Assembly (NCBI RefSeq): GCF_032191775.1
Contig: NZ_CP132507.1
Coordinates: 1,947,001-2,011,000, forward strand
Direction: 5' to 3'
DNA: 64,000 bases
Origin: Rhodoferax mekongensis
GTDB taxonomy: Bacteria; Pseudomonadota; Gammaproteobacteria; Burkholderiales; Burkholderiaceae_C
Below are positions 1 to 62,535 of the stretch, piece after piece. The notes under the pieces are model-generated. The model searched no databases, was not told the DNA's origin, and worked only from the letters and a program-made list of their open reading frames with translations. How positions within the stretch are numbered: position 1 is the stretch's first letter; every line of letters begins with the position of its first letter. Both the position numbers and the translations under genes were made by a program.

Positions 1-252
1 GCACGCGAGCCTCACAACAGTAAGCCGATAGGCTGGGCAAAGGTGGCGTAAGCCACCCTAGCTGTGGGGTAATTTAATTCGGCTGGGCCTGTCTTGGGTA
101 ACTTAGGATGGGTCGAGAAAATAGGTTGCTGGCGTCTTGTAAAGCGTGCCACTGCGCGTTACTAGAAGCGAGAATTAAATCAGACGGCTACGCATGTAGA
201 ACTATTTGGTGATGGCTTTCGGACGGGGGTTCGACTCCCCCCAGCTCCACCA
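1..252 (+). ncRNA. ssrA: tmRNA (ssrA), 3' part, cut by the left window edge
   Basis: This is the 3' portion of transfer-messenger RNA, which rescues stalled ribosomes by trans-translation. The end shows the tRNA-like T-arm (GGGGGTTCGACTCCCCC) followed by CAGCTCCACCA with an encoded CCA. Upstream are the conserved ATGTAGAACT block and hairpins typical of the pseudoknot domain, for example GGTGGC-GTAA-GCCACC near position 43 and a long stem from CCTCACA to TGTGGGG. The 5' half, the resume codon and the tag frame lie outside the window. A second, diverged copy is at 9317-9602. This copy looks lower in GC than that one, so it may be the version brought in by the adjacent island. Identification is firm; which copy is native is inference. 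Confidence 0.9.
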
Positions 253-254
253 TA
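236..254 (+). repeat. 19-bp direct repeat at the tmRNA 3' end, left copy
   Basis: TCCCCCCAGCTCCACCATA occurs here and, unchanged, at 9586-9604. It covers the 3' side of the T stem, the acceptor strand and CCA. A further 13 identical bases (CGGACGGGGGTTC) lie just upstream in both copies, separated by three differing bases. It is a candidate attachment core for tmRNA-targeting integrases. Confidence 0.8.
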
Positions 255-261
255 TACCTTT

Positions 262-291
262 GAAGCCCGCCTTGTGCGGGCTTCATTTTTT
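262..291 (+). terminator. Rho-independent terminator of ssrA
   Basis: A perfect 9-bp stem (GAAGCCCGC / GCGGGCTTC) with a 5-base loop is followed by a T tract. It begins ten bases after the encoded CCA of the tmRNA. Confidence 0.85.
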
Positions 292-572
292 GCAAATACG
301 TGCCAGTTGCTTCCTCTGGCTATCTCATAGTTGCAGCCTGCTACGCAAACTGCCATGCAGTAGACTGCATTTTGGCTCGCTCAGCTCAATAGCTAACGTG
401 CGTCTCGTTCGAAATGTTGTAGCGCACGGCCTGATGGACAAACCAGCCCTCCGGTGCACATATGGACAACTTTCCAAGTTGCCCACATGCACACCCAACG
501 GCGCTGGCTTGACCACAGGAGTTATACCTACGGCCTGACGCGCTTCGCTTGCCAAGAATTAAAAATAGAAAT
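292..572. other. No gene seen between the ssrA terminator and the first island gene
   Basis: About 280 bases separate the tmRNA terminator from the first minus-strand gene. Short open frames exist on both strands but lack a ribosome site and plausible composition. This would be the left inner end of the island and may hold recombinase sites; no clear repeat was recognised. Confidence 0.5.
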
Positions 573-773
573 TCAAGGTTTTGGGAGCTGAACTCGAAGC
601 AAACGCATAGTCAGGGTTACTGGCTTTGGCTCGGACGACTGCCCCCAATAATCGGTTTTCCAGTTACATCTGGCGCAAAAGTATCGATACATTAAGTGTG
701 CCCAGTAGTCGTCCCCTACAGCTTCTATTTGAGGCTGATGCAACCCAATTCGGCATCTAATATCTTTCCCCAT
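573..773 (-). CDS. Small cysteine-motif protein, unknown function
   Basis: A 66-residue protein, last gene of the minus-strand island operon. It starts MGKDIRCRIGLH and carries a C-RIGLH block and a later CARC pair, so one cysteine plus a CxxC could bind a metal in the manner of small prophage proteins that begin CRxxGxH. An upstream in-frame ATG at 788 is rejected because the purine-rich GGGAGGAG lies between the two ATGs and is well placed for the one at 773. I do not recognise a specific family. It follows the 168-residue membrane protein after about 80 bases, so co-transcription is plausible. Role unknown; mobile-element cargo is possible. Confidence 0.5.
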   Translation of the reverse strand: MGKDIRCRIGLHQPQIEAVGDDYWAHLMYRYFCARCNWKTDYWGQSSEPKPVTLTMRLLRVQLPKP

Positions 774-852
774 CTGGTCTCCTCCCATCGGAAGTCTAGA
801 CCGGAAAAAGAGATTCCTATGTGCTACCCATCATATTTAATGAACAGCTGAG

Positions 853-1359
853 TCAGCTAGTTGGCCAGACAGCTTTTAGGGGGACGGTGCGGGCAAATTT
901 TGCTCTGGATACACCGTATCCGAAAAGTAGTCCACCAACCCAAGCGTATGCCGTCCACCAGAGGGCTACACCCGCTATTAGGGCTACGGCAGCAGTGCAC
1001 AAGGAACGTTTGAAAAGCTTGCGTAGCCCCTCAGGAATACATTGAATTCGCTCACCATTTGGGAGCTCAATACCAAGCACAACCCAGTCGGGCCCTCCGG
1101 AAATGGACTGTGATATCTCGGTATTGAAGCCGTTCTTAGAGGGTAGAAGCTCCAAGTGGAGGCCCTTCACTTCACCGTTGAGAAACGCATCTTGTAAAGG
1201 CTTTGGAATATGCACGGACGCATACCGCTGGGGAGAGGTGTCGTCATAGTACTGGAGGTACAAAGCGAAGTTATCGACGCCGCGGACGTCAGAAGAGGAG
1301 CTTCGAATACGAGCGACTTGAATCTTGTGAGGTTGCCGGTACGGAACGTGGTGAGGCAT
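853..1359 (-). CDS. Hypothetical protein with a C-terminal membrane hairpin
   Basis: A 168-residue protein with a soluble N-terminal region of about 120 residues and a hydrophobic C-terminal part (roughly residues 120-150: LCTAAVALIAGVALWWTA then AWVGGLLFGYG) that could form one or two membrane passes. The start ATG has AGGA at a proper distance. It lies 78 bases after the GmtX-like gene on the same strand and is probably in the same operon. I do not recognise the family. A soluble domain tethered by a C-terminal membrane hairpin is seen in some toxins and abortive-infection effectors, but no catalytic motif is visible, so function is left open. Confidence 0.65.
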   Translation of the reverse strand: MPHHVPYRQPHKIQVARIRSSSSDVRGVDNFALYLQYYDDTSPQRYASVHIPKPLQDAFLNGEVKGLHLELLPSKNGFNTEISQSISGGPDWVVLGIELPNGERIQCIPEGLRKLFKRSLCTAAVALIAGVALWWTAYAWVGGLLFGYGVSRAKFARTVPLKAVWPTS

Positions 1360-1437
1360 AGCAAATCCTGGTGGTTTTGCCTCCGTATAGTCAGCAGCTG
1401 ATTCGTTCTTCCCCAGCTTTAAGTCGGCGGCCTAAGC

Positions 1438-2124
1438 CTACTTCAGAGAGAGAATGGTCTTCACAGCAGTGACGAATCCGGGCTTGAAGATTGTTCGAGT
1501 TCGACCTTCACCCAGTGACTTAACAACGCGACCATTTTTCTCTTCCTGCCAGCTCTCTGAGCTCCAAAGCTCAGAAGAGATGGAGTGCTCCAAAGCCTCG
1601 CGCTCCAGCGTAGACAACTTGGGCCCTGTAGACACTTCAAGCGTCATACCGTCATTGGAGGTGGATGATGTATTGTTCCTAACGGCAAGAGGTCGTTTAT
1701 TGATAACTACCTGTGACTGCGACTTGAGAATATTTACCTCTGCCAGCAAAGCGTTTCGCTCTCGTACAAGCTTTTCCACCACAATGCGCATGGCAGGGTC
1801 TGTAATGGAGCGCGTCAGATTGTCAGCGGCGCCGACTTTGGCTGTCTCACGCAGCTTGGGCCCACCTGCATACGCCTGCCATGCCTCAATAAGCTTTCGA
1901 TAGTCAGCAGACTGAACATTCCACAGAGCTTTAACTTTGAGGCCCCCTCGGGACTCTACGGTCTCGCCAACAGTTTTGAGCGAGAAATCTTTGCTTCCCT
2001 GTGATTTGAACTCAGTACAAATCGTATGTATCAGTTCCAGATTTTTCAGTTTGGTTGGATGGGAAGAACTGCTCCGAATTGCGTTCAAAACTGACTCAGG
2101 GTGTATTTCAGTGATAGCGTGCAT
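1438..2124 (-). CDS. gmtX: GmtX-like small partner of a recombinase trio
   Basis: A 228-residue soluble protein, rich in polar residues, with a helical central part (about 110-140: VVEKLVRERNALLAEVNILKSQ) likely to form a coiled coil. It starts nine bases after the stop of the large recombinase gene, so the two are almost certainly co-translated. Size, position and partners match the third member (GmtX) of the gamma-mobile-trio set, in which a GmtY recombinase, a GmtZ integrase and GmtX are encoded together at the edge of mobile islands. No enzymatic motif is visible. The trio assignment rests on architecture and recalled family sizes, not on an alignment. Confidence 0.6.
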   Translation of the reverse strand: MHAITEIHPESVLNAIRSSSSHPTKLKNLELIHTICTEFKSQGSKDFSLKTVGETVESRGGLKVKALWNVQSADYRKLIEAWQAYAGGPKLRETAKVGAADNLTRSITDPAMRIVVEKLVRERNALLAEVNILKSQSQVVINKRPLAVRNNTSSTSNDGMTLEVSTGPKLSTLEREALEHSISSELWSSESWQEEKNGRVVKSLGEGRTRTIFKPGFVTAVKTILSLK

Positions 2125-2133
2125 GACGGAGTA

Positions 2134-4956
2134 CTACTTCAAAGGTTTAAAGGGGATAGCACGGGCTTCAGAGCTATTCGTGACGGCGACCCTCAATGCT
2201 TCGTCAACGGACGCTCCTAGGCGGTTACGGAGGGATTGGCGCGCATCAATTAGCGAAATGACCTCGTACCGGCCAAGAGCAGGATTCTCGGGGTTCATTT
2301 GTGCTGCCAAGAGTCTAAGCAGGGAACTTCCCACAAGCTTTTGTTCCTCCTCGGTGAGTGTCATAAATACCGGTGGAAGGCTGTCTCGCATAAGCGCCGC
2401 GTCCAGAAGCTGTCCCTGGCGTAGCACTGCCTTACCGGGGTCGAGGTCTTGGTAGAGAACAGACCCTTCACAAACACCGGACAGTTGGAGTAACTCTGAG
2501 CTCACCTCTTCAATCGCATAACTCAGCTCCTGTTGACCACCGACGGATATCAACGAAACACCTTCACCGGATGAAAGAACTTTGCGGCAACGCTCCATCA
2601 AGCGGGTGATGGCTGCCAAGGTTTGTGTGAGTTCATCGAACTTGCGTATAGAAAATTCCAGCGTTCGCTGAGCCTCAAGATACTGTTTATGTTCTTGAAA
2701 AATCTGGTCAGTTGAGAGTGCCTCAGCACGTCTGTCCTCTAGAGCTCGAAAGCGTTGTTCAGCGAGTACCACCTGCTCTTTAGCGTCATAGCAGTGATAG
2801 CTGACGTTATTCCATCGCGCAGCCAGCTGCGGTAGAAAGTACGGCTTTGTGACAAACCAACGGCACATAGGGCAATTTCGGGCGCCGCCCGGAACAGGTA
2901 TGTGTCGCGGTGCAGTGTCGTTACCGATATTTGGACCACCGTTATGGCACCCAGGTGCTTCTGTCTCGCAATTGTTCCCACCTACCAGGCATAAGCCATC
3001 GACCATGGCCATCCATCCTGCAGGAGTACGAAGGTGCTTTTGTTCAGGTATCGCGGCAAGGAGGCTTGCCTCATTGTTGGCAATTGCATCCCTAACCAAC
3101 TGGTCATACTCTGCGTTGGCGAGCCAATCAATGATTGTGCTGTCGGAGGAGTCTTGAAGTCGTGTGACACCCGCCTGTATCGCTTCACGTGATTGCATGG
3201 CGCCTGGCTTCGTGTAATACAAAGTCATTACCAAGCGACTATGCCCTGCAATTTTTTGCAATATCGCCAATGGAACTTGGCCATCTAACGCAAGGGCTGT
3301 AATCAAGGATACGCGTAAGCTATGCAGAGAGAACAGTGTGGCAAGTGAGTTCTTTGCCCTATGTTCCTTGTCCGGTACTAACCGAATCGGTGCTCCATTC
3401 GGAAGCGTCTCACCGCGGGGGCCTAACCGCTTTTGGAGCTCTTCAAGGCATGAGAACCAGGGCCTCTCCAACAACTGAATAGCTGGTGGAAGGTCTGTTC
3501 GCTCGGAGTTTTCTGGTGTCCTGAATAGGAACGCCGTATCCGGATATGTCGCAAGTTGCGCCGCAGACTTCATTGGAATATGCCGTGCATCCAAATCTGA
3601 CCATCGGGTAAGTTGCTTTAACGGGTTGTACTTCTCTTGCCAACGACGTAATTTTTCGAACCAATAAAACGGGTCCTGATGTAGCGGGCCTCCAGTAATC
3701 CACGGCACGTTGTATCCCTTTGAAGGGCCGGCTTTCTCGCGGTCTGCAGTCTTATTGGTGTTTATATGAAGAACAACTTTCGCATCGCCATCAATCAATC
3801 GGTTGGGTCGAAGAAACACTCCGTTAGAGTACGGACGTTTTTCATTTCCAAGGGCTAATTTGTTGGCGTTGAGTACCCATTCTCCGTCTTGCCACTTCCA
3901 TGTATCGGCTTCACCCGAGTCCAGCATACGAACTTGCATTGTGCGAAGTGGCAACTGAAGTTTTACAAGCAATGCTACCCACCGAACGGGGCTCCACATT
4001 TCATAAATTGTCTCTTTGAGCCGCCCCTGTCCAACATTGCCAGGAACAGAAGGTACTAGTCGGGTTCTTTTGCGCCAGACGCAATCCGGGTCAGATTTGT
4101 CGATGAGTTGTTCAGAGACTTCAAACCAGATAGGCCCTCGCTTGGTACCGTCTTCATCACCGGTCTTTACAACGCCAAGGGCATCTTGGGCGAATTTCCA
4201 GTCTTTGAAATTCGGACCTTCCGCAATCATTTTGCGTAGTTCATCAATGTATCCATAGGGCAGTGTGGAGCGAACACTTTCCATATGTTTGGCCAGCCCA
4301 CTCCGACTCAAGTATGGGATGGGATTACGAAATGCCGGAGAGGTTTGTAGTCGTTCGTCGTCGTCCTCTTCGCAGAATTCAGGCCGTGTTAGTACCCATT
4401 CAATGAATGAATGAGTACTGTTGTTCACGAAGATTTTTCCATTGGTCCTTTCGGGACCCCATGTCGTTTCGTAAAAGTCTGGTACTTGGGTCTTGTGGAG
4501 AAGTAGCTCAGCAGGGTTTGTCGGCAATTGCGTCTCAACCATGAAGTCAAAGAACGCATTGATGCCCTGCATCGCCTGGCCGAGTGCTGCCTCTCGTCCT
4601 TTCAGCCACTCCACTGCCAGTACTCGCCAATTTTCAAGCTCTGGGTGGTGAGTAGCAACCCATTCGAGGTTGATGTCGGTGCGTTTCGTGTGTCCCTTCT
4701 TCTTTGACTTTCGCGCATTCCGCCTAACCTCAGCCTGAGAGACCTTAACTATTGGAGGAGTAGGGGCTCGCATAAGAGCCCCCACATTTCCCGGGGTCCA
4801 CTGTCGTCCGGTCTTGGTCGAAATTTCTTCAGCATTGAGTTTTATCGCAATTTGCCTAAGCGTAAGACCCTCTTGCACGTAGCTCTGGCATCGCTCCGCG
4901 AGAGCTCTCCTATTCTTATCGAACTCCACTGCAGTGGTTCTCGGATTGGATTGCAT
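2134..4956 (-). CDS. gmtZ: Large tyrosine recombinase, GmtZ-like, with cysteine-rich C-terminal region
   Basis: A 940-residue protein, far longer than a standard phage integrase. Residues about 15-65 form an HTH-like segment (LTLRQIAIKLNAEEI). The tyrosine recombinase catalytic set is readable: Arg338 in LPLRTMQVR, His545-x-x-Arg548 in LHSLRVS, Gly-His at 571-572, and Tyr580/581 in MTLYYTK. Beyond it lies a region with scattered cysteines (656-698, ending CPMC) that probably binds zinc, then a long helical tail (about 720-800). It starts 18 bases after the upstream recombinase stop, with AGAGAAG before the ATG. Likely role: DNA strand exchange for the island together with its neighbours. It resembles GmtZ / VPA1269-type proteins of Vibrio islands. 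Recombinase chemistry is clear; the family name is moderately sure. Confidence 0.75.
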   Translation of the reverse strand: MQSNPRTTAVEFDKNRRALAERCQSYVQEGLTLRQIAIKLNAEEISTKTGRQWTPGNVGALMRAPTPPIVKVSQAEVRRNARKSKKKGHTKRTDINLEWVATHHPELENWRVLAVEWLKGREAALGQAMQGINAFFDFMVETQLPTNPAELLLHKTQVPDFYETTWGPERTNGKIFVNNSTHSFIEWVLTRPEFCEEDDDERLQTSPAFRNPIPYLSRSGLAKHMESVRSTLPYGYIDELRKMIAEGPNFKDWKFAQDALGVVKTGDEDGTKRGPIWFEVSEQLIDKSDPDCVWRKRTRLVPSVPGNVGQGRLKETIYEMWSPVRWVALLVKLQLPLRTMQVRMLDSGEADTWKWQDGEWVLNANKLALGNEKRPYSNGVFLRPNRLIDGDAKVVLHINTNKTADREKAGPSKGYNVPWITGGPLHQDPFYWFEKLRRWQEKYNPLKQLTRWSDLDARHIPMKSAAQLATYPDTAFLFRTPENSERTDLPPAIQLLERPWFSCLEELQKRLGPRGETLPNGAPIRLVPDKEHRAKNSLATLFSLHSLRVSLITALALDGQVPLAILQKIAGHSRLVMTLYYTKPGAMQSREAIQAGVTRLQDSSDSTIIDWLANAEYDQLVRDAIANNEASLLAAIPEQKHLRTPAGWMAMVDGLCLVGGNNCETEAPGCHNGGPNIGNDTAPRHIPVPGGARNCPMCRWFVTKPYFLPQLAARWNNVSYHCYDAKEQVVLAEQRFRALEDRRAEALSTDQIFQEHKQYLEAQRTLEFSIRKFDELTQTLAAITRLMERCRKVLSSGEGVSLISVGGQQELSYAIEEVSSELLQLSGVCEGSVLYQDLDPGKAVLRQGQLLDAALMRDSLPPVFMTLTEEEQKLVGSSLLRLLAAQMNPENPALGRYEVISLIDARQSLRNRLGASVDEALRVAVTNSSEARAIPFKPLK

Positions 4957-4974
4957 GGATGAATACTTCTCTTT

Positions 4975-6450
4975 TTACGGGATTATGAGTTTGGGGACTG
5001 TTTGCATACTGAGGCCTTCAACATTAGCCTCGGTCACTTGGACAATCTCCCTGCGCATATCGCTGCTGAGTTCAGACAGGCGGTCGACCGCTAGTCGGAG
5101 ATGCTTCACGCACTCGTTTCTATCCGCCTCTGTGTAGACGTTTTGACTATCTAAATCAGTGTGATGCAGGAACCGACGAATCATCTCTTTTGGTACGCCG
5201 GCTTTGCGTAGCCGCTGTCCATATGCGTGACGATGCCCGTGAATTGTTGTGCCTAAGCCTTTAGAGGGCTCTAGGCCGATACGTCGGACGGCAGCGGCAT
5301 GGGAGGCTTCATACTTGCCCATTTTGTGAAGCCCTCCAATGGGTTCGCGCATCAAGTTCATAAAGGCATAAGGATGCGCTCGCAGAGATGCATCAACTGA
5401 AAGCACTTGCTCCGCATATAGGTTCCAGATTGTCCAAAACAACTTGCCGAATTCCGGAACGAACCAATACGCTTGTTTGTAATAGCCTCCGTACTTGGAC
5501 TCATGCATTCCACCTTTCCATCCTGCGGCGGAAGTCGATAGCTTCCAATATCTGGGAACGAGGCCATAACGCTCAGCGAGGTACTCAACGCGACGTCCCT
5601 GTCGCGGTCTTCCATTTATGTCCGTCCAGCTAGGGTCAGGTGGTGCGTCCCCCCATGCTGGGTGGTGGATAAGTACTAGAGCTTGGCCTTTGTGCAATGG
5701 GTCTTCTTGCACGTCCCAGAGGTACAGGTGAAAGGGTTCGGACTCTCTAAATCCTGCTCCGTTAAGCAGTAGCGTGATGAGCATGTCCCTGTAGTTATAA
5801 CGATTGCCGACTTTGAATCCTTTGAGAATCAAGTCCAGTATTCGGTCTTCGGGGAACGCCAACGCCGTCTCTTTTTCGACCCTCGGCGGTGCGTGTACCT
5901 TTCCTGATGCCCCTTTGTTTCCAGGGCTCCGGGCCGACTCTTCAAACGCAGACCAGGTGTGGCCTAGGAAGGCCTTATTCCTTCGGTATTTGTAAGCAGA
6001 CTCCGCTAGTCTCAAGTCGTGCTGACTGCCTGCCCAAGTGTTTGCCGGGTTGCCCTTCCCGGGGTTTCTTGCTGCCCACCAGTTAAAGAAATCTGTGAGG
6101 TGCCGGATGACGCGTGTGCTTTTGTGCGGGCCCTTGGCGCTCCACCAAAGCCCGCTTGGGTCCTCTCCCGATTCCGGTGCGATAGTTCCAGTTATCAACC
6201 TTTGTCGGAAAGTTTGAAAGATAGCTTGTTCATTCGGATACGAAGAGTGTGCATCAAGGTAGTCGAGAAATAGTCGTACCGATGATGTGACTTTGAGCAT
6301 CCATGAGGGACTTCTGGTGTCCCAGTGTTCCAGGAGGTAATCAAGTAAAACGTGAACGGGACCTTGAGGTGTAAGCAGTACTGGCATCTCATAGGAAATT
6401 CCAGTCTCATCGGTATAAACGCGAGCGACAACAACGGTTGATTCAAACAT
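4975..6450 (-). CDS. gmtY: Tyrosine recombinase, GmtY-like
   Basis: A 491-residue recombinase counted from the ATG at 6450; an in-frame TTG at 6483 would add 11 residues but has no better ribosome site. Catalytic residues (ATG numbering): Arg235 in NGAGFRESEP, His404-x-x-Arg407 in HGHRHAYG, His430 in FLHHTD, and the nucleophile Tyr439 in SQNVYTEAD. The N-terminal part would be the core-binding domain. The gene overlaps the end of the RecD-like helicase gene by eight bases, tying the helicase to the trio. Expected role: integration and excision of the island at ssrA, possibly together with the larger recombinase downstream. Confidence 0.8.
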   Translation of the reverse strand: MFESTVVVARVYTDETGISYEMPVLLTPQGPVHVLLDYLLEHWDTRSPSWMLKVTSSVRLFLDYLDAHSSYPNEQAIFQTFRQRLITGTIAPESGEDPSGLWWSAKGPHKSTRVIRHLTDFFNWWAARNPGKGNPANTWAGSQHDLRLAESAYKYRRNKAFLGHTWSAFEESARSPGNKGASGKVHAPPRVEKETALAFPEDRILDLILKGFKVGNRYNYRDMLITLLLNGAGFRESEPFHLYLWDVQEDPLHKGQALVLIHHPAWGDAPPDPSWTDINGRPRQGRRVEYLAERYGLVPRYWKLSTSAAGWKGGMHESKYGGYYKQAYWFVPEFGKLFWTIWNLYAEQVLSVDASLRAHPYAFMNLMREPIGGLHKMGKYEASHAAAVRRIGLEPSKGLGTTIHGHRHAYGQRLRKAGVPKEMIRRFLHHTDLDSQNVYTEADRNECVKHLRLAVDRLSELSSDMRREIVQVTEANVEGLSMQTVPKLIIP

Positions 6451-8659
6451 GGTGCGAAAGCTCTCTCTGTAGAAGTTCTCCAAGGGTCACGTTCCGTTTT
6501 GATGCGTGAGCTTCTGCCTCAACGGCCTTCCGTGCTGCGGAAAGGTCGCCTACCAAAATAACCTTCATTCGTGCGCGAGTTATCGCGGTATAAAGAATCG
6601 TTCGGTCAAGGTTGCGAGACCGGTATATCGGGACTATTGCAATAGGGACTTCACTTCCCTGACTTTTGTGAACGGTTATCGCGGATGCAAGCTCGAGAGC
6701 ATCCAGTACCGCTTCACTTATCGGGCGAAGTTCTCCGTCGTCCCAGCGAATCCAGCCATATGTGTCTTGCTCGCTTTCCTCAGGGGGCGACAACTCGACG
6801 ATGTGTCCGATACTGCCGTTCTGAAGGTCGAGGTCCCATAAATTCGTAGTACAAATTACTCGGTCACCTAAACGGAATCCTGTAGCTTCCCACCTGCTTC
6901 GCTCATCGCTGTACACGAGAAGTTGAGGGGCCGCAGAGTTGGTCGCAGCTTGACACAGCTTGTTGACCAGGTTGGTAGGTGCCGCCCCTGAATTCTTCGT
7001 GCTACAAAGGATTTGACTATTGAGTGGGTCTTTCAGAAAAAGCTCCACCACACGCTCAGCTAGCTCTTCGCTAGGACACTGAATGAAACAAATATCTGCT
7101 GAGAGGTCTTCAGTAAGTGTTGGCCAAATACCTCGCCTGATTTCACCGGCAGCCTGAGCTATCGCACCTGCAAAGCGCCGAGTTTCCGTCAACTCGACAT
7201 GGGGCATTGTGTCTACCCAAGCGAGTTCATGAAGCGTCAATCCGGGCCCCACTGGTGGAAGCTGCGCGGAGTCGCCAATCAAAATGAGTCGAACAGAATT
7301 CGGAACTGAGGACAACAGTTGGTACGCTTGTTGAATATCCAACATGCTGCACTCATCCACAACCAGGGTGGCCTCCTCCGGTATACCTTTGGGTGCAATG
7401 TTTCGAAGAAAGCCCGCTATGGTCATGGCCTGCCGGCGGGTTGCTTGGGCCATTCGCTTCGCAGCTTTTCCAGTTGGAGCTTGCAAGTAGACAGGAATGG
7501 TTTTTTCTTCCAGCAGAAAGTTGATTGCATTCAATGTGGTTGTCTTACCGACCCCAGCACCTCCAATGAGACAAAAGGCACTACAGCTTGCCGCTGTGTG
7601 AACGGCCTGCTTCTGGGCTGCATTGAGTTCGAACCGGGTGGTGCTTACCCCTGTGTTCTGAGACGCTTCGAAAGCGTCGATGAGCGTATCAACCTCACTA
7701 GCAGCAAACAACGGTGTAGACGCCTTAATACGCGTCGCCAGGGCAGAACAAACGGCTTTCTCCATCAATAGTGGGCCCGGGGCATAGACTCGATTTCCGT
7801 ATCGCAGCACTACTCCGTTTTGCTCCGCCATCAATAAGGCGGCTTCGCCGCCGAATGGAGAGATACGCGGGTGCACAGCTTTAATAAGTTCAGATGCTTC
7901 CAAAAAGGTATGACCGGCATCGAATGCACGGTAAAGCTCAGCCTCTATGGCTGCAGCTAGTCTGCGCGGGTCGTCCGCGGATACATTGAATTCCGTATCT
8001 GCAAGCTTGTCCGCTTCTTGCCAAGACATCCCCAACGCTAACAATCGGTAAGGGTCCTCTCTCAATTTTTCGAGCGCGTCGCCTCCATACACTCTCAACA
8101 ATTTTTTCCCGGTACGCACATCAATATTGGCATCCTGTAGCCAGCGTAGAAGTTCGGGACAGCTGTAATACTTCCATCCTGAAATTAGGGTTAGAGCATT
8201 GCTGCTTCCTACTACAGCCTCAAGGCAGGCGTAATCTGCTTTATCTAGAGCGTCGTAGAGAGACTCGCCCAGGGTGTCCCAGACTCGCTGGGCAGTTACT
8301 GGTCCAATACCTGGAAACTGCTCCCCCTTAAGAAGCGAAATGATGTGAGAGCCGCTTGTACGTTCAAGCACAGCAGTCGTTGCAATTAATTGAAGCTCTC
8401 TTACGACCCATCCTTCAGATGTCGTGAATTCAATGGGCTCCGGTGTGCCTGTTACAAGCCAACGTTGACCAGCGCATAGTGGTACGGGGGTCAATCTAGC
8501 GGGGATAGAGATAGCGTAATTGGGCGCTCGGGGAATCGGTCGCCCATCGATGTCCACAACAACTGCGCTGAGATAGGTGAATCGCGGAGTCGATGTACGA
8601 ATTCTGGTTATTCGAATACGAAATTCAAATTGGTTGCCACTATGCGTCGGGGTGCTCAT
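6443..8659 (-). CDS. RecD2/TraA-like superfamily 1B DNA helicase
   Basis: A 738-residue ATP-dependent 5'-3' helicase of the RecD/TraA type. A helix-hairpin-helix-like segment sits near residue 115 (FPGIGPVTAQRV). Walker A is GGAGVGKTT at 366-374, Walker B is VVDECSM near 433-439, and motif III is GDSAQLPP at 462-469. The C-terminal UvrD-C2 part has ITVHKSQGSE and LYTAITRARMKV. Both gene ends overlap neighbours: ATGA with the coiled-coil gene upstream, and eight bases with the recombinase downstream. It lacks RecB/RecC partners, so it is not part of RecBCD. In this place it could help process or replicate the excised island, or act as cargo. Enzyme class is sure; role in the island is inferred. 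Confidence 0.85.
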   Translation of the reverse strand: MSTPTHSGNQFEFRIRITRIRTSTPRFTYLSAVVVDIDGRPIPRAPNYAISIPARLTPVPLCAGQRWLVTGTPEPIEFTTSEGWVVRELQLIATTAVLERTSGSHIISLLKGEQFPGIGPVTAQRVWDTLGESLYDALDKADYACLEAVVGSSNALTLISGWKYYSCPELLRWLQDANIDVRTGKKLLRVYGGDALEKLREDPYRLLALGMSWQEADKLADTEFNVSADDPRRLAAAIEAELYRAFDAGHTFLEASELIKAVHPRISPFGGEAALLMAEQNGVVLRYGNRVYAPGPLLMEKAVCSALATRIKASTPLFAASEVDTLIDAFEASQNTGVSTTRFELNAAQKQAVHTAASCSAFCLIGGAGVGKTTTLNAINFLLEEKTIPVYLQAPTGKAAKRMAQATRRQAMTIAGFLRNIAPKGIPEEATLVVDECSMLDIQQAYQLLSSVPNSVRLILIGDSAQLPPVGPGLTLHELAWVDTMPHVELTETRRFAGAIAQAAGEIRRGIWPTLTEDLSADICFIQCPSEELAERVVELFLKDPLNSQILCSTKNSGAAPTNLVNKLCQAATNSAAPQLLVYSDERSRWEATGFRLGDRVICTTNLWDLDLQNGSIGHIVELSPPEESEQDTYGWIRWDDGELRPISEAVLDALELASAITVHKSQGSEVPIAIVPIYRSRNLDRTILYTAITRARMKVILVGDLSAARKAVEAEAHASKRNVTLGELLQRELSHHV

Positions 8660-9153
8660 CGTGGAAGCCGTCCCGACTCGCGTAAAACCGACTCCATGGC
8701 TTTGAATCGTTGGAGCTTTTCGTGAGCATTTCTAATTTGCTCTTTAAGGTCCTGAACTTCATAGCGTAGAGGTCTTAGTGCGACTAGTTCTGCATCTTTT
8801 GCTGCAACCTCTTTTTCCAGTCGCTTCAATCGCTCCGCATCAATGTTCTTGGCAATGGTTGACCTGGGCCTCTGGGGCAGCATTCCCTCATCAGGCGGGA
8901 GGGCCTCTGCAATCACTGGTTGCCCTATCAATACGCCCTCATCACGCAGGCGGTTCTCCAGGTCCAATAGAGCTTGTTTTATCCGAGCGTTTTGCCGCAA
9001 TGCAGGGCGGTCAATTCTGACCGCCTCCATGACGCTTGCGCGAACCAGCTGAGTCCGGTTGCTGTTTGCGATTTCGCGGAAATAGCTTAGCGATTGGCTA
9101 TTTGCCCAAGCATCGAAGCGGTCGGCGGCTTCATCTCCCTTGACCTTGCTCAT
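8656..9153 (-). CDS. KfrA-like or GmtX-associated coiled-coil protein, unknown function
   Basis: A 165-residue protein, first gene of the island operon. Residues about 1-70 are mixed alpha and could be a small DNA-binding domain (YFREIANSNRTQLVRASVMEAV). From about 105 to the end it is a strongly heptad-like coiled coil (ERLKRLEKEVAAKDAELVAL). Its TGA overlaps the helicase ATG (ATGA), implying translational coupling. This layout recalls plasmid KfrA-type proteins, where an N-terminal DNA-binding part precedes a coiled coil, but no alignment was made. It may bind the island ends or act as an accessory factor to the recombinases. No strong Shine-Dalgarno is visible before its ATG. Confidence 0.6.
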   Translation of the reverse strand: MSKVKGDEAADRFDAWANSQSLSYFREIANSNRTQLVRASVMEAVRIDRPALRQNARIKQALLDLENRLRDEGVLIGQPVIAEALPPDEGMLPQRPRSTIAKNIDAERLKRLEKEVAAKDAELVALRPLRYEVQDLKEQIRNAHEKLQRFKAMESVLRESGRLPR

Positions 9154-9316
9154 TGACGTTTTTCTGCAGTTGAACGTCTATTGATTATGGAGTATGATGG
9201 GGTAAATTGTAAACAGCCAGTGATGGCAAACTGTTGAAAACCTCAACTTACTGCTCAAAACAGATAAAACTGCCCGCTATATATTGAAAGTATGGAAGTT
9301 TTTTATGGGTGAGGAA

Positions 9317-9602
9317 CAAACGACGAACGTTTCGCACTCGCTGCTTAATAACCAGTGAGCCTTACAACGGCAGGCCGATGGGCCGGGCAAGGGTGGCGCA
9401 AGCTGTCCAGGCTGTAAGGTCATTTACATCGGCTGGCTTTTTACCGGGTACCTTGGTGAGAGGCGAGAAAGTAGGGTACTGGCGTCCGGCATAGCGTGCG
9501 ACTGCGCGATTCCGGTGGCGAGACTCAAATCAGACCGCTAAACATGTAGATCTGCTCGAGGAAGTTTTGCGGACGGGGGTTCAAATCCCCCCAGCTCCAC
9601 CA
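9317..9602 (+). pseudogene. ssrA: Second tmRNA 3' part with tag reading frame (displaced or carried ssrA fragment)
   Basis: Codons from 9319 read N-D-E-R-F-A-L-A-A followed by two TAA stops, the known betaproteobacterial tmRNA tag; the codon before is ACA (Thr) instead of Ala. From there to CCA at 9602 the sequence parallels the copy at 1-252 at roughly 70 percent identity by eye, with pairing kept in places (CCTTACA / TGTAAGG). Upstream of the tag the similarity stops, so the mRNA-like 5' part and the 5' half of the tRNA-like domain are missing and this copy cannot make a whole tmRNA. Its higher GC suits the host, so it may be the original 3' end displaced by island A. It also forms the left end of element B. 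Confidence 0.8.
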
Positions 9603-9613
9603 TACCCCCTGAT

Positions 9614-9650
9614 AAAGGCCGCTAGGAACATACACCTAGTGGCCTTTTTC
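9614..9650 (+). terminator. Terminator after the second ssrA fragment
   Basis: A 13-bp stem with one G-T wobble (AAAGGCCGCTAGG / CCTAGTGGCCTTT), an 8-base loop and a short T tract begin 12 bases after CCA. Confidence 0.75.
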
Positions 9651-9716
9651 TTTGGTAAATCAAGTACTTACGGTGCAGCATAGTACAAAGCGCTCTATTG
9701 ACTGCTACCGCAAAGC

Positions 9717-9807
9717 GGGGGTACAAACGGGGGGAGATTCCAGAAAAACGGGGGGATTTTGAGTCTGTACCCCCAAAATCTGTACCCCCATTAGGAGCCG
9801 TACCCCC
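9717..9807. promoter_or_regulatory. Cluster of GGGGGTACA / TGTACCCCC sites before the integrase
   Basis: One GGGGGTACA at 9717, two further GGGGGG tracts at 9729 and 9750, and inverted TGTACCCCC at 9766 and 9781, with GTACCCCC at 9800-9807 ending exactly at the integrase start codon. The last site overlaps the zone between the AGGAG ribosome site (9793) and the ATG. Similar copies recur at the other end of the element (15104, 15116). This pattern fits integrase arm-binding sites that also repress the integrase gene; binding is inferred. Confidence 0.6.
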
Positions 9808-11049
9808 ATGCTGACTGATGCTCAGTGCAAAAACGCCGTGTGCCCGGCAGACAAAAAGCAAGCAAGGTTTGCCGATTCTGGGGGCATGTACCTACAGGTA
9901 AGCCCCACTGGTTCAAAGCGCTGGTTTTTGAAGTACCGGATTGACGGCAAAGAAAAGCAGCTCGCACTAGGCAGCTACCCGGCGATAAGTCTTTCTGAGG
10001 CTCGCAAAGCCCGTGACGCTGCAAAGCTTAAGAAGTCTGAGGGCGTCGATCCTGTGCAGGCTCGCAAGCTGGAAAAGCTGAAAAACACCCGCTCCACTGG
10101 TGACACGTTCAAAGCTATCGCGCTGGAGTGGTACGCGAAGCAGGCACCGCAATGGAGCGAAAGTCACGCCGGGCGCATGTTGCGGCAGCTGGAGCGCGAT
10201 CTTTTCCCGTGGATAGGTGAGCGGCCTATCGCTGAAATTCACGCTATGGAGCTATTGGCAGCGCTGCAAAAGGTGGAGGAGCGGGGCGCATTGGAGACGG
10301 CAGACCGTGCCCTGATGCTTGCCCGGCAGGTTTGGGAGTATTGGCTACCCACCGCAGACGTGCAGCAACGCAATATCACCGAGGGACTAAAGGCACGGCT
10401 TACCCCATACCGTGGCAAGAGCTTTGCGGCCATCGTGGAGCCTTTGCGCATGGGTGAGCTACTGCGTGCCATCAAGAGCTACAAGGGTGGCCCTATCGTG
10501 CGCACAGCGCTGCAATTGGCCCCCATGCTGTACCAACGCCCCGGCAACTTGCGAGAGATGGAATGGACAGAGCTAGACCTAGAGGCGGGTCTGTGGACGA
10601 TTCCCAGCATGAAGATGAAGCGCACAAAGCTGGAGAAGGAAAACGGAGAGGCGCACGTCGTGCCATTGCCCACGCAAGCTGTGGCGCTCCTAAAGGCTAT
10701 CCAGCCCCTGACAGGGCACGGGCGCTATGTGTTCCCCGGTGAGCGCAGCCATGACCGGCCAATCTCTGACAACTCCGTGCGCAGTGGCTTGTACGCATTG
10801 GGGTTTGGGAAAGAGCAGACATGGCACGGCTTTAGAGCTAGCGCGCGCACGATGCTGGTGGACGAATTGAATCTTGACCCTTTGGCAATTGAGGCGAACC
10901 TAGCCCATGCAGTGAAAGACGCTAACGGGCGCAGCTACAACCGGACGCAGTACCTAAAGCAGCGGTTTGAACTGGTGCAGCAATGGGCTGATTACTTGGA
11001 CAAGCTAGCGCGGGGTGCTGATGTGATCCAGTTGCGCGCTGGAGTCTGA
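9808..11049 (+). CDS. int: P4-type tyrosine integrase of element B
   Basis: A 413-residue integrase with the N-terminal arm-binding domain of P4-like integrases (FADSGGMYLQVSPTGSKRW, LGSYPAISLSEAR), a core-binding domain at about 95-190, and a catalytic domain. Catalytic residues: Arg244 in QRPGNLREMEW, His340-x-x-Arg343 in WHGFRASART, His367 in LAHAV and Tyr377 in GRSYNRTQYL. It catalyses insertion and excision at the tmRNA 3' end, shown by its position directly behind the ssrA end and in the same direction. Length is normal for the family and the gene looks intact. AGGAG lies ten bases before the ATG, partly within the repeat cluster, suggesting self-repression. Confidence 0.93.
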   Translation: MLTDAQCKNAVCPADKKQARFADSGGMYLQVSPTGSKRWFLKYRIDGKEKQLALGSYPAISLSEARKARDAAKLKKSEGVDPVQARKLEKLKNTRSTGDTFKAIALEWYAKQAPQWSESHAGRMLRQLERDLFPWIGERPIAEIHAMELLAALQKVEERGALETADRALMLARQVWEYWLPTADVQQRNITEGLKARLTPYRGKSFAAIVEPLRMGELLRAIKSYKGGPIVRTALQLAPMLYQRPGNLREMEWTELDLEAGLWTIPSMKMKRTKLEKENGEAHVVPLPTQAVALLKAIQPLTGHGRYVFPGERSHDRPISDNSVRSGLYALGFGKEQTWHGFRASARTMLVDELNLDPLAIEANLAHAVKDANGRSYNRTQYLKQRFELVQQWADYLDKLARGADVIQLRAGV

Positions 11050-11192
11050 GTGAATATTTAAACGGCGTTCAATTTATTGAGGCATTGTTTCTGCGAAGCC
11101 CTGACGCAGTTCATTCAGGGCAAATAGGCGGGGCTGGTGAGTGTTGCGACCACTTGCCAGCCCCTGACCACTATCAAAACGGAGCTTTGAAA

Positions 11193-11462
11193 ATGGCTAG
11201 TGAAAATGTAGCGCAATCGAACAAAACAGTACTTTTGCATGTTGCGCATCTTGAAAGCGTAGTGAGTGCCGTTGTAGAGCGTGATGAACAGCTCTATGCA
11301 ATGGCATCATCTTTACTGATGCATCTATCTCCACAAGACGAGACAAATATACCTGACGGCTACCCGACAACTGCTTGGCGATTGGCGCAGCTTTTAGACG
11401 ACATGCTGTCAAGTACAAGTCACAGCAAATTTGTGCGCACATGCTTGCTAGGAGCTAATTGA
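11193..11462 (+). CDS. Small hypothetical protein of element B
   Basis: An 89-residue protein starting MASENVAQSN, chosen because GGAG lies ten bases before this ATG; an upstream in-frame extension to 11085 has no ribosome site. It appears all-helical, with an N-terminal stretch (HVAHLESVVSAVVERDEQL) followed by a segment YPTTAWRLAQLLDDML. I do not recognise the family. It sits between the integrase and the 224-residue gene and is more AT-rich than host genes. Function unknown. Confidence 0.6.
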   Translation: MASENVAQSNKTVLLHVAHLESVVSAVVERDEQLYAMASSLLMHLSPQDETNIPDGYPTTAWRLAQLLDDMLSSTSHSKFVRTCLLGAN

Positions 11463-11553
11463 CGTTGTTTCGCCAGCCCTAGGCTGATCCCCGAAAACCC
11501 GTTTTCCCTGACGGGCTGGGCTGGCAACTATTTGCAGGGGCGCTGGGGGGCGC

Positions 11554-12228
11554 ATGACAGACTTATCTCATTGGGATTTTGCCGAACATTTCTCTGGCTA
11601 TGACGCGGCCGCACTGATACTTGGACTTGAGCCGCGTGAATCGGAACTAGACCAATGGCGTGTCCATGTCGTAACTGATCGAATGGAGTTGCACTATAAA
11701 AAAGCCAAAGACCGGCATTTTCACGAGGTGTTTGGAGACCCGATTGAAACGCTGTACTCGGCAGAACCTGACCTATCAGAACTTCCCAGTGTTGCCCTCG
11801 AAAGATTGAGGTATCGAAACGATTGCTTTAACGAGGAAACTCCATTGGCCGACTGGTTTGCTGATAATCGTGCGCCGAAGTTTGAGAATCAAGAATTTTC
11901 GAGAAAGTCGATTTCAAGCTGGCTTGCAGCAATCGGGATGAAATCGGTTTACCAGTTTGAGCGAGCTGATTCAGATGATCTTAAGTCCTCTTTATCCGAT
12001 GAAAGAGAAATAGACCCTAGTGATCTGCCGCCTGAACTTGACGCAGCAAATTTAGCTTATCGAGCGATTGCGAATGGTTTTGGCGATCAATCTGCGACCC
12101 CACGAAATCGACTGATTCAGTTTCTGAGAACCAACTTTCCAGACTTCAAAACTGAGCAAATTGAACGAATTGCCACCGTTGCCAATCCAGATAAATCGAC
12201 TGGCCGCAAAAAAATAGACAAACTTTAG
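11554..12228 (+). CDS. Conserved hypothetical protein of integrative elements
   Basis: A 224-residue soluble protein beginning MTDLSHWDFAEHFSGYDAAALILG. Two regions look conserved: an N-terminal helix block in which an FSGYDAAALILG stretch marks the fold, and a C-terminal part with LDAANLAYRAIANG, RNRLIQFLRTNFP and IERIATVANPDK. The last part is familiar from proteins coded next to AlpA regulators in proteobacterial islands, with a basic tail (KSTGRKKIDKL). No enzymatic motif is visible. It probably belongs to the regulatory or maintenance module of the element, together with the AlpA-like gene 160 bases downstream. Confidence 0.65.
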   Translation: MTDLSHWDFAEHFSGYDAAALILGLEPRESELDQWRVHVVTDRMELHYKKAKDRHFHEVFGDPIETLYSAEPDLSELPSVALERLRYRNDCFNEETPLADWFADNRAPKFENQEFSRKSISSWLAAIGMKSVYQFERADSDDLKSSLSDEREIDPSDLPPELDAANLAYRAIANGFGDQSATPRNRLIQFLRTNFPDFKTEQIERIATVANPDKSTGRKKIDKL

Positions 12229-12387
12229 GCTGGGTATTTAAAGCCAATATCCATGCGGGTTTGCCGAATGGTCGGCCTATTCCGCACCGTACTTTGGCGG
12301 TTTAAAAAACCTATTTCAACCTGATCGAAATCACGACATTCGCTCCATCGCAACAACGGTTCTAAAGCCGTATGAAAGGAGCCAGAT

Positions 12388-12690
12388 ATGTCGATCTGGA
12401 GAATGCCCACAGTCAAAGCGGAAACAGGGCACCGCAGCCATGCCAGCATCTATAACGCAATCCACGCTGGGCTATTCACCAAGCCCGTGCCGATTGGACA
12501 GCGATCTGTAGGCTGGCCCTCTGATGAAGTTCAAGCCATCAATGCCGCGCGGATTGCGGGTAAGACTGAGGCTGAAATCAGAGAGCTGGTTCAACGCTTG
12601 CACGTCAAGCGCACCGAACTGGCAAACCTCTTTGAGGAGCAATTGCAGCAAAGAGCAACGGCTCACTCTGTCGGTTTTCAATCCAACTAA
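12388..12690 (+). CDS. AlpA-family regulator / excisionase-like protein
   Basis: A 100-residue protein with a MerR-like winged helix: LRMP-type start (IWRMPTVKAETGHRSHASIYNAIHAG), then FTKPVPIGQRSVGWPSDEVQ, the characteristic AlpA pattern in which a short helix-turn-helix is followed by G-x-R-x-x-x-W and a helix. AlpA of prophage CP4-57 activates its integrase; relatives act as excisionase or regulator. AAAGGAG lies before the ATG. The C-terminal 35 residues form an added helix rich in Arg and Glu. It is followed after 12 bases by another HTH gene. Likely controls excision or gene expression of element B. Confidence 0.8.
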   Translation: MSIWRMPTVKAETGHRSHASIYNAIHAGLFTKPVPIGQRSVGWPSDEVQAINAARIAGKTEAEIRELVQRLHVKRTELANLFEEQLQQRATAHSVGFQSN

Positions 12691-15339: not shown

Positions 15340-15747
15340 CTACTCTTCTCCGCGATTGCCGCGGGCTCGCTTGATGCCACTGCGTTGGGCTTTGTCTTCC
15401 CGTCTGCGCACGCGGGATGCGTAGGTGGGTCGCGTCGCCTTACGCAGCGGAGGCTCAATGGCAGCGGCCTCCAGGATGGCGCGCAAGCGTTCGTAGGCAT
15501 CCTGGCGGTTCAGTTCGCGTGTGCGGTGCTGTTGGGCTTTGAGAATCAGGACCCCTTCCCGTGTGATGCGGCCGTCAGCGCTTTGCAGCAAGCGCTCTTT
15601 CATCGCGTCCGGCAGTGAAGAGCCCGGAATATCAAAGCGCAAATGGATGGCACTGGAAACTTTGTTGACGTTCTGGCCACCGGCGCCTTGAGCGCGGATG
15701 GAGATCAGCTGTGCTTCCGCGACAAAGCGGTCAAAAAGAAAAGCCAC
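15340..15747 (-). CDS. arfB: Alternative ribosome-rescue factor ArfB (YaeJ/ICT1 family)
   Basis: A 135-residue class-I release-factor-like protein that frees stalled ribosomes by hydrolysing peptidyl-tRNA in the P site without a stop codon. The GGQ catalytic motif is at 23-25 (GAGGQNVNKVSSA). The C-terminal tail from about 105 is rich in Arg and Lys (YASRVRRREDKAQ), as needed to enter the empty mRNA channel. It lacks the codon-recognition domain of RF1/RF2, and the length fits ArfB (about 140). It lies next to the ssrA-linked element, pointing toward it, so tmRNA and its backup would have been convergent neighbours before insertion. Confidence 0.93.
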   Translation of the reverse strand: MAFLFDRFVAEAQLISIRAQGAGGQNVNKVSSAIHLRFDIPGSSLPDAMKERLLQSADGRITREGVLILKAQQHRTRELNRQDAYERLRAILEAAAIEPPLRKATRPTYASRVRRREDKAQRSGIKRARGNRGEE

Positions 15748-18060: not shown

Positions 18061-18157
18061 ACGCGGCAGTCGGACTTGTGCGCATCGCGTGCAGGGTTAA
18101 CGCAGTTTCGCGATACTCGCCACCCAGCCATCTTGCTGGGATGCCGGTAGCGCATTG

Positions 18158-19702
18158 ATGTCTTACAGCGTTGTCTGGTTCAAACGCGACCTCCGAACAC
18201 ACGATCACGCGGCATTGCACCATGCCCTCCGGTCGGGGCCCGTGCTGTGCCTCTATTGCGTAGAACCCACGCTGTGGGCCCAAGCTGACGCGTCTACGCA
18301 GCACTACCACTTCACGCTGGAGTGTTTGCGGGATTTGTGGGTGCAGCTCAAACACAAAGGGCTGCGCCTGCATCTGGTCGTGGGTGACGCACCGGAGGTC
18401 TTGGCACGACTGCACGCAGAGGCGCCTTTTATGGCCATTTACTCCCATGAGGAAACCGGCAATGAGGCCAGCTATGCCCGGGATCGGGCGGTCTCCCGTT
18501 GGTGCAAAGCGCTGGGAGTGGTCTGGCATCAATACAAACAATTTGGCGTGGTGCGTGGAGTCGTCAACCGCGATGTGTGGCACCTGCAATGGACCGAGCA
18601 CATGTCCGGGGCGCAGATCGGCATAGATGATTCTTTGCATGCGGTCAGCATTGCGTTGCCCTGGGACGCGTCCACGCCCCCGGTGGCAGCCAGTCTCGGC
18701 TTGGAAGAACCTGACAAGCCTTACCGTCAAGCCGGTGGCAGGGCGCGTGCAGAGCAGGTTTTGCAGAGTTTCTTGACGGATCGCAGCGCGCGCTATCGGG
18801 GGGGTATTTCGTCGCCCCTTTCTGCCAGCGAGGCCTGCTCACGCCTGTCGCCCTACCTGGCCTTGGGTTGCCTGAGTGTCCGTGAGGTGGTGCAAGCCGT
18901 GCAACAAGCGCAAAAGGCCTCGGGAGAAGGGCTTAAGCGCCATCAGGCGGGTTTGCGATCCTTCACCAGCCGCTTGCACTGGCATTGCCACTTCATCCAA
19001 AAGCTGGAATCCGAGCCTGATATCGAATTCCGGAACATGCACCGGGGTTATGACGGCCTTCGGGAGTCCGAGCACGACCCTGAGCGCCTCGAGGTGCTGA
19101 TGGCAGGCCGTACAGGTTGGCCTTTGGTAGATGCGTGCATTGCCATGCTGCGTGAAACCGGCTGGGTCAACTTCCGCATGCGGGCCATGATTGTGTCCAT
19201 TGCCGCCTATCCTTTGTGGCTGCACTGGCGACCTGTTGGTGAATGGCTCGCCAGAGAGTTTTTGGACTATGAGCCCGGCATCCACTGGAGCCAGTTGCAG
19301 ATGCAGTCGGGCACGACGGGCATCAATATTCCGCGTATTTACAACCCCATCAAGCAAGCACGTGACCAGGACCCCGAGGGCCAATTCGTCAGGCGATGGT
19401 TGCCTGCCATGCGCAAAGTGCCGGACGCCTGGTTGTTCGAGCCCTGGCGCATGCCCTTGGACATGCAAAGCCGCCTAGGGCTGACAGTGGATGGTCCGGA
19501 GCCTGACATTCCGCAGCCTTTGGTGGATTTGGAGGCGGCGACCCGTGAGGCCAAAAAGCGCCTGTTTGAACTGCGTGCGCAGCCCAGTGTGAGGGCGGCA
19601 AAGGCGGGCATCGTGCACAAGCACGGATCGCGAACATTCCGATCCTCGCGCGGTGCTGACAAGAGGTCTCCGTCGGATCACTCCCAATTGGAACTGTTAT
19701 GA
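18158..19702 (+). CDS. Deoxyribodipyrimidine photolyase-family flavoprotein
   Basis: A 514-residue protein of the photolyase/cryptochrome family. It starts [19 protein letters not shown] (antenna-binding Rossmann domain, about 1-130). The FAD-binding helical domain holds [38 protein letters not shown] and [19 protein letters not shown]. The last segment has the [19 protein letters not shown] signature. Role: light-driven repair of pyrimidine dimers or light sensing. First gene of a four-gene operon; its TGA overlaps the next ATG. The start codon is ATG at 18158 although a TTG lies one codon earlier. Which lesion it repairs cannot be told from sequence here. Confidence 0.88.
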
Positions 19703-19848
19703 AAATGCGGAAGAAATCTGACTTGCCCCGCAAGACATGCGTGGCGTGTGGCTTGCCCTTTCAATGGCGCAAGAAGTGGGAAAAAGTCTGGGACGAGGTC
19801 AAATACTGCTCAGACCGTTGCCGGCAACAAGGAACCAAAAAATCATGA
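19699..19848 (+). CDS. DUF2256 small zinc-finger protein
   Basis: A 49-residue protein with [20 protein letters not shown] followed by the block [10 protein letters not shown]: two CxxC/CxxxC pairs that should bind one zinc ion, and the W-R-K-K-W core that marks DUF2256. Such proteins are known neighbours of cryptochrome/photolyase genes, and their function is unknown. Both ends overlap neighbours by four bases (ATGA), so it is co-translated between the photolyase and the DASH cryptochrome. Too short for many gene finders but firmly supported by motif and coupling. Confidence 0.88.
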
Positions 19849-62171: not shown

Positions 62172-62255
62172 AAAGAGCTCTCTCGCAAATCAGTCGCAAA
62201 CATTGAAGTCGCCCACCCGCACACCATGTGCAGGTGACGACCCCCTCTGTTTGAG

Positions 62256-62455
62256 ACCTGAGAGATTCACCCGCTGTCTTGTGGACGGCGGGCTTGCTCC
62301 TGCGGTGTGCCGGCGGACAAGTGCGCGGCAGCTCTTCAGAGTGCAAAGGGACTTTCGTCCCAGATCGCAGCGGTCCTGGGTGCCTGAGAGTTTCCGGGGT
62401 GGTTGCTCCTTCGGCGCTGCTGCCCGGGTGGGCGGCAGGCTCTCCCGCTGCGATG
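62256..62455 (-). ncRNA. Tandem glycine riboswitch in the dadA leader
   Basis: Read on the minus strand, aptamer 1 (about 62455-62360) has GGAGAGCC, then CGCCGAAGGAGCAA and AAACTCTCAGGC, closed by P1 ATCGCAGCGG / CCGCTGCGAT. Aptamer 2 (about 62345-62250) has GAAGAGCTG, ACACCGCAGGAGCAA, AATCTCTCAGGT, closed by CTCTG / CAGAG. These are the core blocks of the glycine class, in the usual tandem order. The next gene downstream is dadA at 62171; gcvP ends upstream at 62536. About 80 bases remain for an expression platform; no clear terminator was seen, so control of translation is possible. Confidence 0.88.
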
Positions 62456-62535
62456 CCGGGGCCAGCCCGGCAAGGGCGGCGGCATGCAATGCACAGCCGC
62501 CCTGAAAACCATGGTGAATGGTCGATGCAGCTCCC

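Follow-up and report, generated by a model that had tools for sequence, protein, structure and literature searches.

A Gamma-Mobile-Trio element that appears to interrupt ssrA in its tag codons and to supply a complete divergent tmRNA gene in Rhodoferax mekongensis

Gamma-Mobile-Trio (GMT) islands were reportedly described by Mahata et al. in 2024 in Nat Microbiol. We analyzed a GMT element in the Rhodoferax mekongensis genome (one contig, 3.89 Mb), where it lies within ssrA, the gene for transfer-messenger RNA (tmRNA). The stretch studied, hereafter the window, is the 64,000 nucleotides at C1:1947001-2011000. Very probably, the element broke the native ssrA in its proteolysis-tag codons and supplies a whole divergent ssrA just inside its left end. 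On the best reading of the data, this GMT lineage breaks the tag and makes up for it by bringing a whole tmRNA gene, where ordinary tDNA islands bring a short 3′ stub.

Excerpts of papers on GMT islands, which are known here from NCBIfam names and such citing papers, report variable cargo consisting of defense systems, type VI secretion system effectors, or resistance genes (PMC12039261, PMC12715929). The R. mekongensis element resembles these islands in having GmtX, GmtZ, and GmtY in one module, all over curated cut-offs, and differs from them, as excerpted, in sitting inside ssrA tag codons and carrying a complete ssrA. Excerpts on islands in tRNA and tmRNA genes state that they restore their target with an attP-borne fragment (Islander, PMC4383910), and the ssrA islands of Dehalococcoides are described as breaking the gene in its T-loop and having a 20-bp repeat (PMC3146451). 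Those islands and ours share an ssrA target and a broken gene made good by element-borne sequence, but in our case it is the tag that is broken, and the element supplies the gene in full, including its 5′ half. An Islander-type island was considered and rejected, as the halves of the complete gene are both foreign and the native halves are both stranded; we file the locus as a variant of the GMT element, not as a tDNA island.

Other selfish DNA is known at this gene. Group I introns in tmRNA genes, all reported in the T-loop, splice from the RNA, and in the same excerpt the authors allow that intron sites elsewhere in tmRNA may have been missed (PMC11915505). The window element likewise interrupts the gene, but it replaces it. 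In the portion consulted of another report, excision of the CP4-57 prophage at Escherichia coli ssrA deletes one base and inactivates tmRNA (PMC10107115). Both elements lie at ssrA, and excision alters the tmRNA allele, but in our case exact excision would be expected to give back the native allele, whose tag differs. An excerpted tmRNA survey mentions duplicate calls that proved to be island-made fragments (PMC4131195). Among the literature matches listed, the excerpts mention neither a GMT element in ssrA nor a tag insertion with a whole spare ssrA.

Native ssrA halves around a complete gene

A tmRNA 3′ part, truncated by the 5′ edge of the window, occupies positions 1-252 (RF00023, 95 bits) and ends in CCA, followed by a 10-pair hairpin and a T-run at 261-285 (1891-1915 in the coordinates of locus L004). 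A second 3′ part runs from 9317 (CAAACGACGAACG...) to a CCA at 9602; it encodes (A)NDERFALAA and two stops, TAATAA, and we read from the sequence a hairpin and T-run of its own after the CCA. A preliminary description of this DNA had proposed two ssrA 3′ parts, about 30 percent diverged, each with its own CCA and terminator, flanking a recombinase island, the second beginning at the tag frame. This picture held in each respect, the identity between the two parts being ~73% (75% across 248 aligned bases). The copy at 9317 alone is not reported by Rfam at its gathering threshold. The two parts are not a chance resemblance, since a 31-base 3′-end pattern matched both copies and had 0 matches in 100 shuffles, and the 9317 copy is identical to the ssrA of a sister species over 286 of 286 bases.

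In the genome, the left-edge tmRNA is complete (C1:1946871-1947252), its first 130 bases lying beyond the left edge of the window. It scores 190.3 bits over positions 1-374 of RF00023 (gathering cut-off, 47), has a complete structure, tag frame, and CCA, and encodes the tag ANDSSYALAA according to ARAGORN. The tmRNA model has 17 matches in the genome, this gene being the only one over the cut-off. Further upstream, from L004:1273, lies another tmRNA 5′ half, which ends with CTAACTGCAAACG and gives way to unrelated DNA. It stops 132 bp before the complete gene, at the hexamer CAAACG (C1:1946733-1946738), and a right copy of CAAACG forms the first bases of the 9317 copy (window 9317-9322).

We compared these sequences with the ssrA genes of relatives. 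A search of the genus found tmRNA at E ≤ 1e-30 in 23 of 41 genomes, and 22 were compared, the window's own being excluded. The sister G033 (locus L026) has one uninterrupted ssrA reading CTAACTGCAAACGACGAACG, with one CAAACG. When the outer halves of the R. mekongensis gene are joined and one CAAACG is removed, 375 of 376 bases equal the sister gene; the inner complete gene agrees with it in only 282 of 385 alignment columns. Identity to the 5′ half of the sister gene is 0.98 for the stranded upstream half and 0.72 for the 5′ half of the complete gene. On either side, the flanking DNA of the sister is alignable as far as the ssrA halves, at 90.6% over 3,752 columns on the left (native 5′ half included) and 92.6% over 1,424 columns on the right. 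The match of the joined outer halves and the divergence of the inner gene indicate that the native ssrA was cut in its tag codons and that the inner gene is wholly foreign. The insertion point, CTAACTG-CAAACG-ACGAACG, is in the first codons of the proteolysis tag. The sequence comparison thus shows the native ssrA as split into a 5′ half that keeps its upstream region and a 3′ half that has none. A permuted two-piece tmRNA made of the native halves was ruled out, as the 5′ half is on the left and the 3′ half on the right, ~9.6 kb apart.

The preliminary description had correctly assigned the 9317 copy to the native gene and the copy at 1-252 to the island, and had correctly placed the break at the tag, where the native halves meet at CAAACG. 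It expected that leftward extension would recover a host 5′ half. A 5′ half was recovered, but it is as divergent as the 3′ part that follows it, and the native 5′ half lies separately further upstream. Likewise, the comparison with an island-free sister bore out replacement of the 3′ half but not the retention of a host 5′ half. When two isolated 75-nucleotide 3′ ends were folded, neither stood out (z = −0.06 and −0.07).

The GMT element and its surroundings

The element measures 9,584 bp, counted from the start of the left CAAACG (C1:1946733) up to but not including the right CAAACG (window 9317). The complete ssrA starts 138 bp past the first base of the left CAAACG, in the same orientation as the native gene, and is followed by an open reading frame (ORF) of 168 amino acids and then, on the minus strand, by genes for GmtX, GmtZ, GmtY, a RecD2-like helicase, and a VPA1267-like protein. 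Window coordinates, strands, and evidence are as follows.

1-252, plus: 3′ two thirds of the element-borne complete ssrA (match in the window and, for the whole gene, RF00023 score and ARAGORN tmRNA call as above)
261-285, plus: terminator-like hairpin with T-run, 3′ of the element-borne ssrA
853-1359, minus: 168-amino-acid ORF between ssrA and gmtX, matching 0 families
1438-2124, minus: gmtX (NF040692, 181.9 bits; cut-off 40)
2134-4956, minus: gmtZ, with an Integrase_2 domain (NF047926, 914.4 bits, cut-off 600; PF13009, 344.8 bits)
4975-6483, minus: gmtY recombinase (NF040693, 430.9 bits; cut-off 340)
6443-8659, minus: RecD2-like helicase (TIGR01448, 370.6 bits, under the cut-off of 500; PF13604 and PF14490)
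8656-9153, minus: VPA1267-like protein (NF040697, 86.4 bits, just under the cut-off of 90)
9288-9316, no strand: right element end, with motifs AAGTATGG and TTTATGGG, whose inverted counterparts CCCATAAA and TCCATAGTT are at the left end
9317-9322, plus: right copy of the 6-bp repeat CAAACG
9317-9602, plus: stranded native ssrA 3′ half, tag NDERFALAA

The trio is complete, all three proteins exceeding their curated cut-offs. Matches to Phage_integrase (PF00589) are weak and under the cut-off for GmtZ (20.7 bits) and GmtY (24.8 bits; cut-off, 27.1). The element is discrete, with CAAACG on both sides and a single copy at the corresponding place in L026, and its cargo is limited to the one ORF without a family match. 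Both ends carry CCCATAAA and a TCCATA(G/C)TT motif, inverted between the ends and spaced slightly differently, and a 16-pair palindrome containing the same TCCATA-type motif lies between the left end and ssrA.

Beyond the native 3′ half, the window encodes an integrase with P4-type domains (9808-11049), an int-alpA RNA (11472-11539), and AlpA (12388-12690). A P4-type integrase, 98% identical over 406 amino acids, also follows the sister's uninterrupted ssrA, which places this gene in a second, older island (window 9603-12690). No further ssrA 3′-end repeat was found in the window, the only other match having 3 mismatches in 17 bases at 49532. Elsewhere, positions 18155-22771 hold three successive photolyase/cryptochrome-type genes with photolyase domains, the second a DASH cryptochrome and the third of the DPRP family, and a tandem pair of glycine riboswitch aptamers (RF00504) lies at 62237-62457 on the minus strand.

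A second element, rarity, and origin of the spare gene

A family-wide search for GmtZ, covering 299 genomes, gave 21 with a match, 8 of them over the cut-off including the window's own. We then searched 11 genomes for tmRNA, nine with GmtZ matches and two sisters. Ramlibacter sp. H39-3-26 (G063) has two over-cut-off tmRNAs, on the same contig as its GMT trio, and shows the same architecture at the same ssrA site: native 5′ half, CAAACG, left end, complete ssrA, cargo, GmtX/Z/Y, right end, CAAACG, and native 3′ half. Its trio is over the cut-offs, its element-borne ssrA scores 195.5 bits and encodes the tag ANDNSYALAA, and its CAAACG copies are 66,298 bp apart, giving a ~66-kb GMT element. Seven of eight cargo proteins tested match transport- or metal-type Pfam families, including an RND pump with partners, ArsB, P-type ATPases, and FTR1; parts of this element, metal-efflux and transport cargo included, are on loci L104, L105, and L083. 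Among 10 proteins of the element tested, none matched PADLOC at 1e-10, and the RecD2-like and VPA1267-like genes had no match in it.

GmtY and GmtZ of the two elements are 67% identical, and those of the window are at most 52% identical to those of each of nine other GMT loci. No ssrA match was found in these nine within stretches of 14 to 17 kb, which reach little past GmtX, so that a left-end ssrA beyond long cargo could be missed in G491, G502, and G564, three genomes with GMT loci but no whole-genome tmRNA search. In G564, GmtY starts ~560 bp from an intact tRNA-Asn (noted at L098:10079-10154), of which no second copy was found in the stretches compared.

The arrangement is rare in the genomes sampled, which were drawn evenly at one per species, so that the counts do not estimate natural frequencies. 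A pattern designed for ssrA broken at the exact tag point matched 4 of 394 family genomes, namely, the window's genome, G063, and two places that we take as chance because no tmRNA surrounds them; a reversed-pattern control gave 3 matches. A narrower left-junction pattern matched 1 of 369 class genomes, the window's own. Scanning genome contigs with GmtZ returned one locus, in G063, and viral contigs had no match to GmtZ or to the junction pattern. We also built a profile from the GmtZ proteins of the window and G063, which themselves score ~2,070 to 2,080 bits. Apart from the window's genome, the profile found matches in 3 of 399 genomes of the order at E ≤ 1e-80, the best scoring 940 bits, and in 1 of 103 genomes of the genus at 1e-60, scoring 945 bits. 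Among plasmids, 125 records contain GmtZ relatives at E ≤ 1e-100, all with less than 60% identity; short 3′-end ssrA matches occur in 5 plasmid and 4 phage records.

The relatives of the spare gene in R. mekongensis differ along its length. At positions 20-85 the nearest sequence is the G063 island ssrA (83%, rank 1 of 44), a lead that is small over positions 1-102 (75.5% versus 73.8%). At positions 126-382 the nearest is L025 from the host genus (84%), with the G063 island copy only at rank 42 of 44. We built trees of the two parts from an alignment of 45 sequences, leaving out row L118, in which no start was found; the two parts give short alignments, and the trees were rooted at the midpoint. 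In the 5′-part tree, the island copy groups with that of G063 and the family ssrAs L065, L066, and L067 (support, 0.95). In the 3′-part tree it falls in a group of 17 (0.61), with 15 same-genus ssrAs and L070, and the G063 island copy and L065-L067 lie outside a group of the other 41 (0.95). By these comparisons the element-borne ssrA is itself a mosaic whose nearest relatives switch around the tag. The chimerism proposed in the preliminary description thus survives in weaker form, within the island gene and not as a join of host and island. A simple account of the mosaic would be gene conversion, in a previous host belonging to this genus, of the island 3′ part by a displaced native one. No donor of the island ssrA was found, the best sampled being the genus member L025 at 82% and G110 at 75%, the latter from a search matching 13 of 379 order genomes at E ≤ 1e-20, the window's own included.

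Proposed mechanism and alternatives

We propose that the GMT element inserted at the first tag codons of the native ssrA, leaving CAAACG on either side, in a reaction probably catalyzed by GmtY/GmtZ. The spare ssrA would be expressed and its tmRNA served by the host's single SmpB, whose one gene is on the chromosome. Products of stalled ribosomes would then receive ANDSSYALAA in place of ANDERFALAA. With a replacement gene, the element could sit at a conserved site in an important gene while the cell kept its trans-translation, and an exact excision is predicted to restore the native ssrA.

Several observations weigh against this scheme. It has two examples only, and the insertion is one that we infer, the inserted and empty sites coming from different species. 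No promoter-like site emerged upstream of the element ssrA when L004:1150-2000 was scanned in a simple way, a region that also includes the presumed native ssrA promoter. The predicted energies of the P2 duplex scarcely favor the element's own 5′/3′ pairing (−19.1 kcal/mol) over native 5′ with island 3′ (−18.3 kcal/mol); the pairings with the native 3′ half give −15.7 (island 5′) and −14.7 kcal/mol (native 5′). Finally, the host encodes ArfB, so that a working tmRNA may not be essential for survival.

How far the association between element and site is a dedicated one is a separate matter. We tentatively suggest, at somewhat below even chances, that these elements form a distinct GMT lineage, with the ssrA tag codons as a dedicated attachment site and a replacement tmRNA as a structural part of the left end. 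Such a lineage would take over the rescue RNA and rewrite the cell-wide tag from ANDERFALAA to ANDSSYALAA or ANDNSYALAA, with excision acting as a reversible allele switch. A rather less probable account, though one to be taken seriously, is survivorship: ssrA would be ordinary cargo, and of GMT elements hitting many sites only carriers of ssrA would persist in ssrA, with no dedicated targeting or spare. It concerns only the purpose of the arrangement and agrees with the structure described above. There are two cases only, and each of the eight GmtZ-bearing genomes searched whole besides G063 has a single over-cut-off tmRNA, lying either on a different contig from GmtZ or over 100 kb away from it, which indicates that most GMT elements have neither the ssrA site nor a spare. 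The two spare genes are ~70% alike (271/389), and one is a mosaic, as independent captures would predict. Survivorship alone would account less readily for the shared 6-bp site and orientation and the similar place of ssrA, 138 and 174 bp past the first base of the left CAAACG in the two elements. The two recombinase sets are also mutually closest among those compared, and in each element a TCCATA motif is found close to either end.

The alternative ribosome-rescue factor ArfB has its gene at window 15340-15747 on the minus strand (159 bits; cut-off, 100), ~5.7 kb from the stranded ssrA 3′ half, and is a possible back-up for trans-translation in the neighborhood. A nonfunctional element tmRNA, with the cell relying on ArfB, would fit the presence of this gene and the promoter scan. 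We regard it as improbable, as the structure score equals or exceeds that of the sister's own ssrA (190.3 versus 180.9 bits) despite ~27% divergence, and as the acceptor-stem G-U pair, the CCA, and the ALAA tag end, all read from the sequence, are kept along with SmpB.

The preliminary description had offered as its alternative a crossover at the T-arm, with the island carrying an old fragment. The locus would then be an ordinary tDNA island, formed by a P4-type integrase crossing over in the T-arm or 3′ end, and 9317-9602 would be an old displaced fragment. The P4-type integrase and int-alpA RNA following 9602 would suit this account, which is nonetheless hardly credible, as the same integrase follows the uninterrupted gene of the sister. 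The fragment is also 286 bases long and native-identical, and it has a matching native 5′ half, features that a T-arm crossover would not be expected to leave. Moreover, the account requires that the complete gene continue from a native 5′ half, and no such continuity was found. The favored idea of the preliminary description, a working tmRNA combining a host 5′ half with an island-supplied part from tag to CCA, agrees with the foreign 1-252 copy, the native 9317 copy, and an acceptable P2 pairing of native 5′ with island 3′ in a folding check that discriminates poorly, but it is refuted by the sequence left of the window, where the 5′ half of the complete gene is foreign and the native one is stranded upstream, cut at CAAACG.

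If the GMT element did break the native ssrA and supply its replacement, a mobile element would own a quality-control RNA of its host together with the tag that this RNA encodes. The locus would illustrate how insertion at a conserved position of an important gene can become affordable for an element. The two tags and two RNAs would serve as markers for GMT insertion and excision. It would also carry a warning, that the ssrA annotated in a genome may belong to mobile cargo and the native copy be a broken one.

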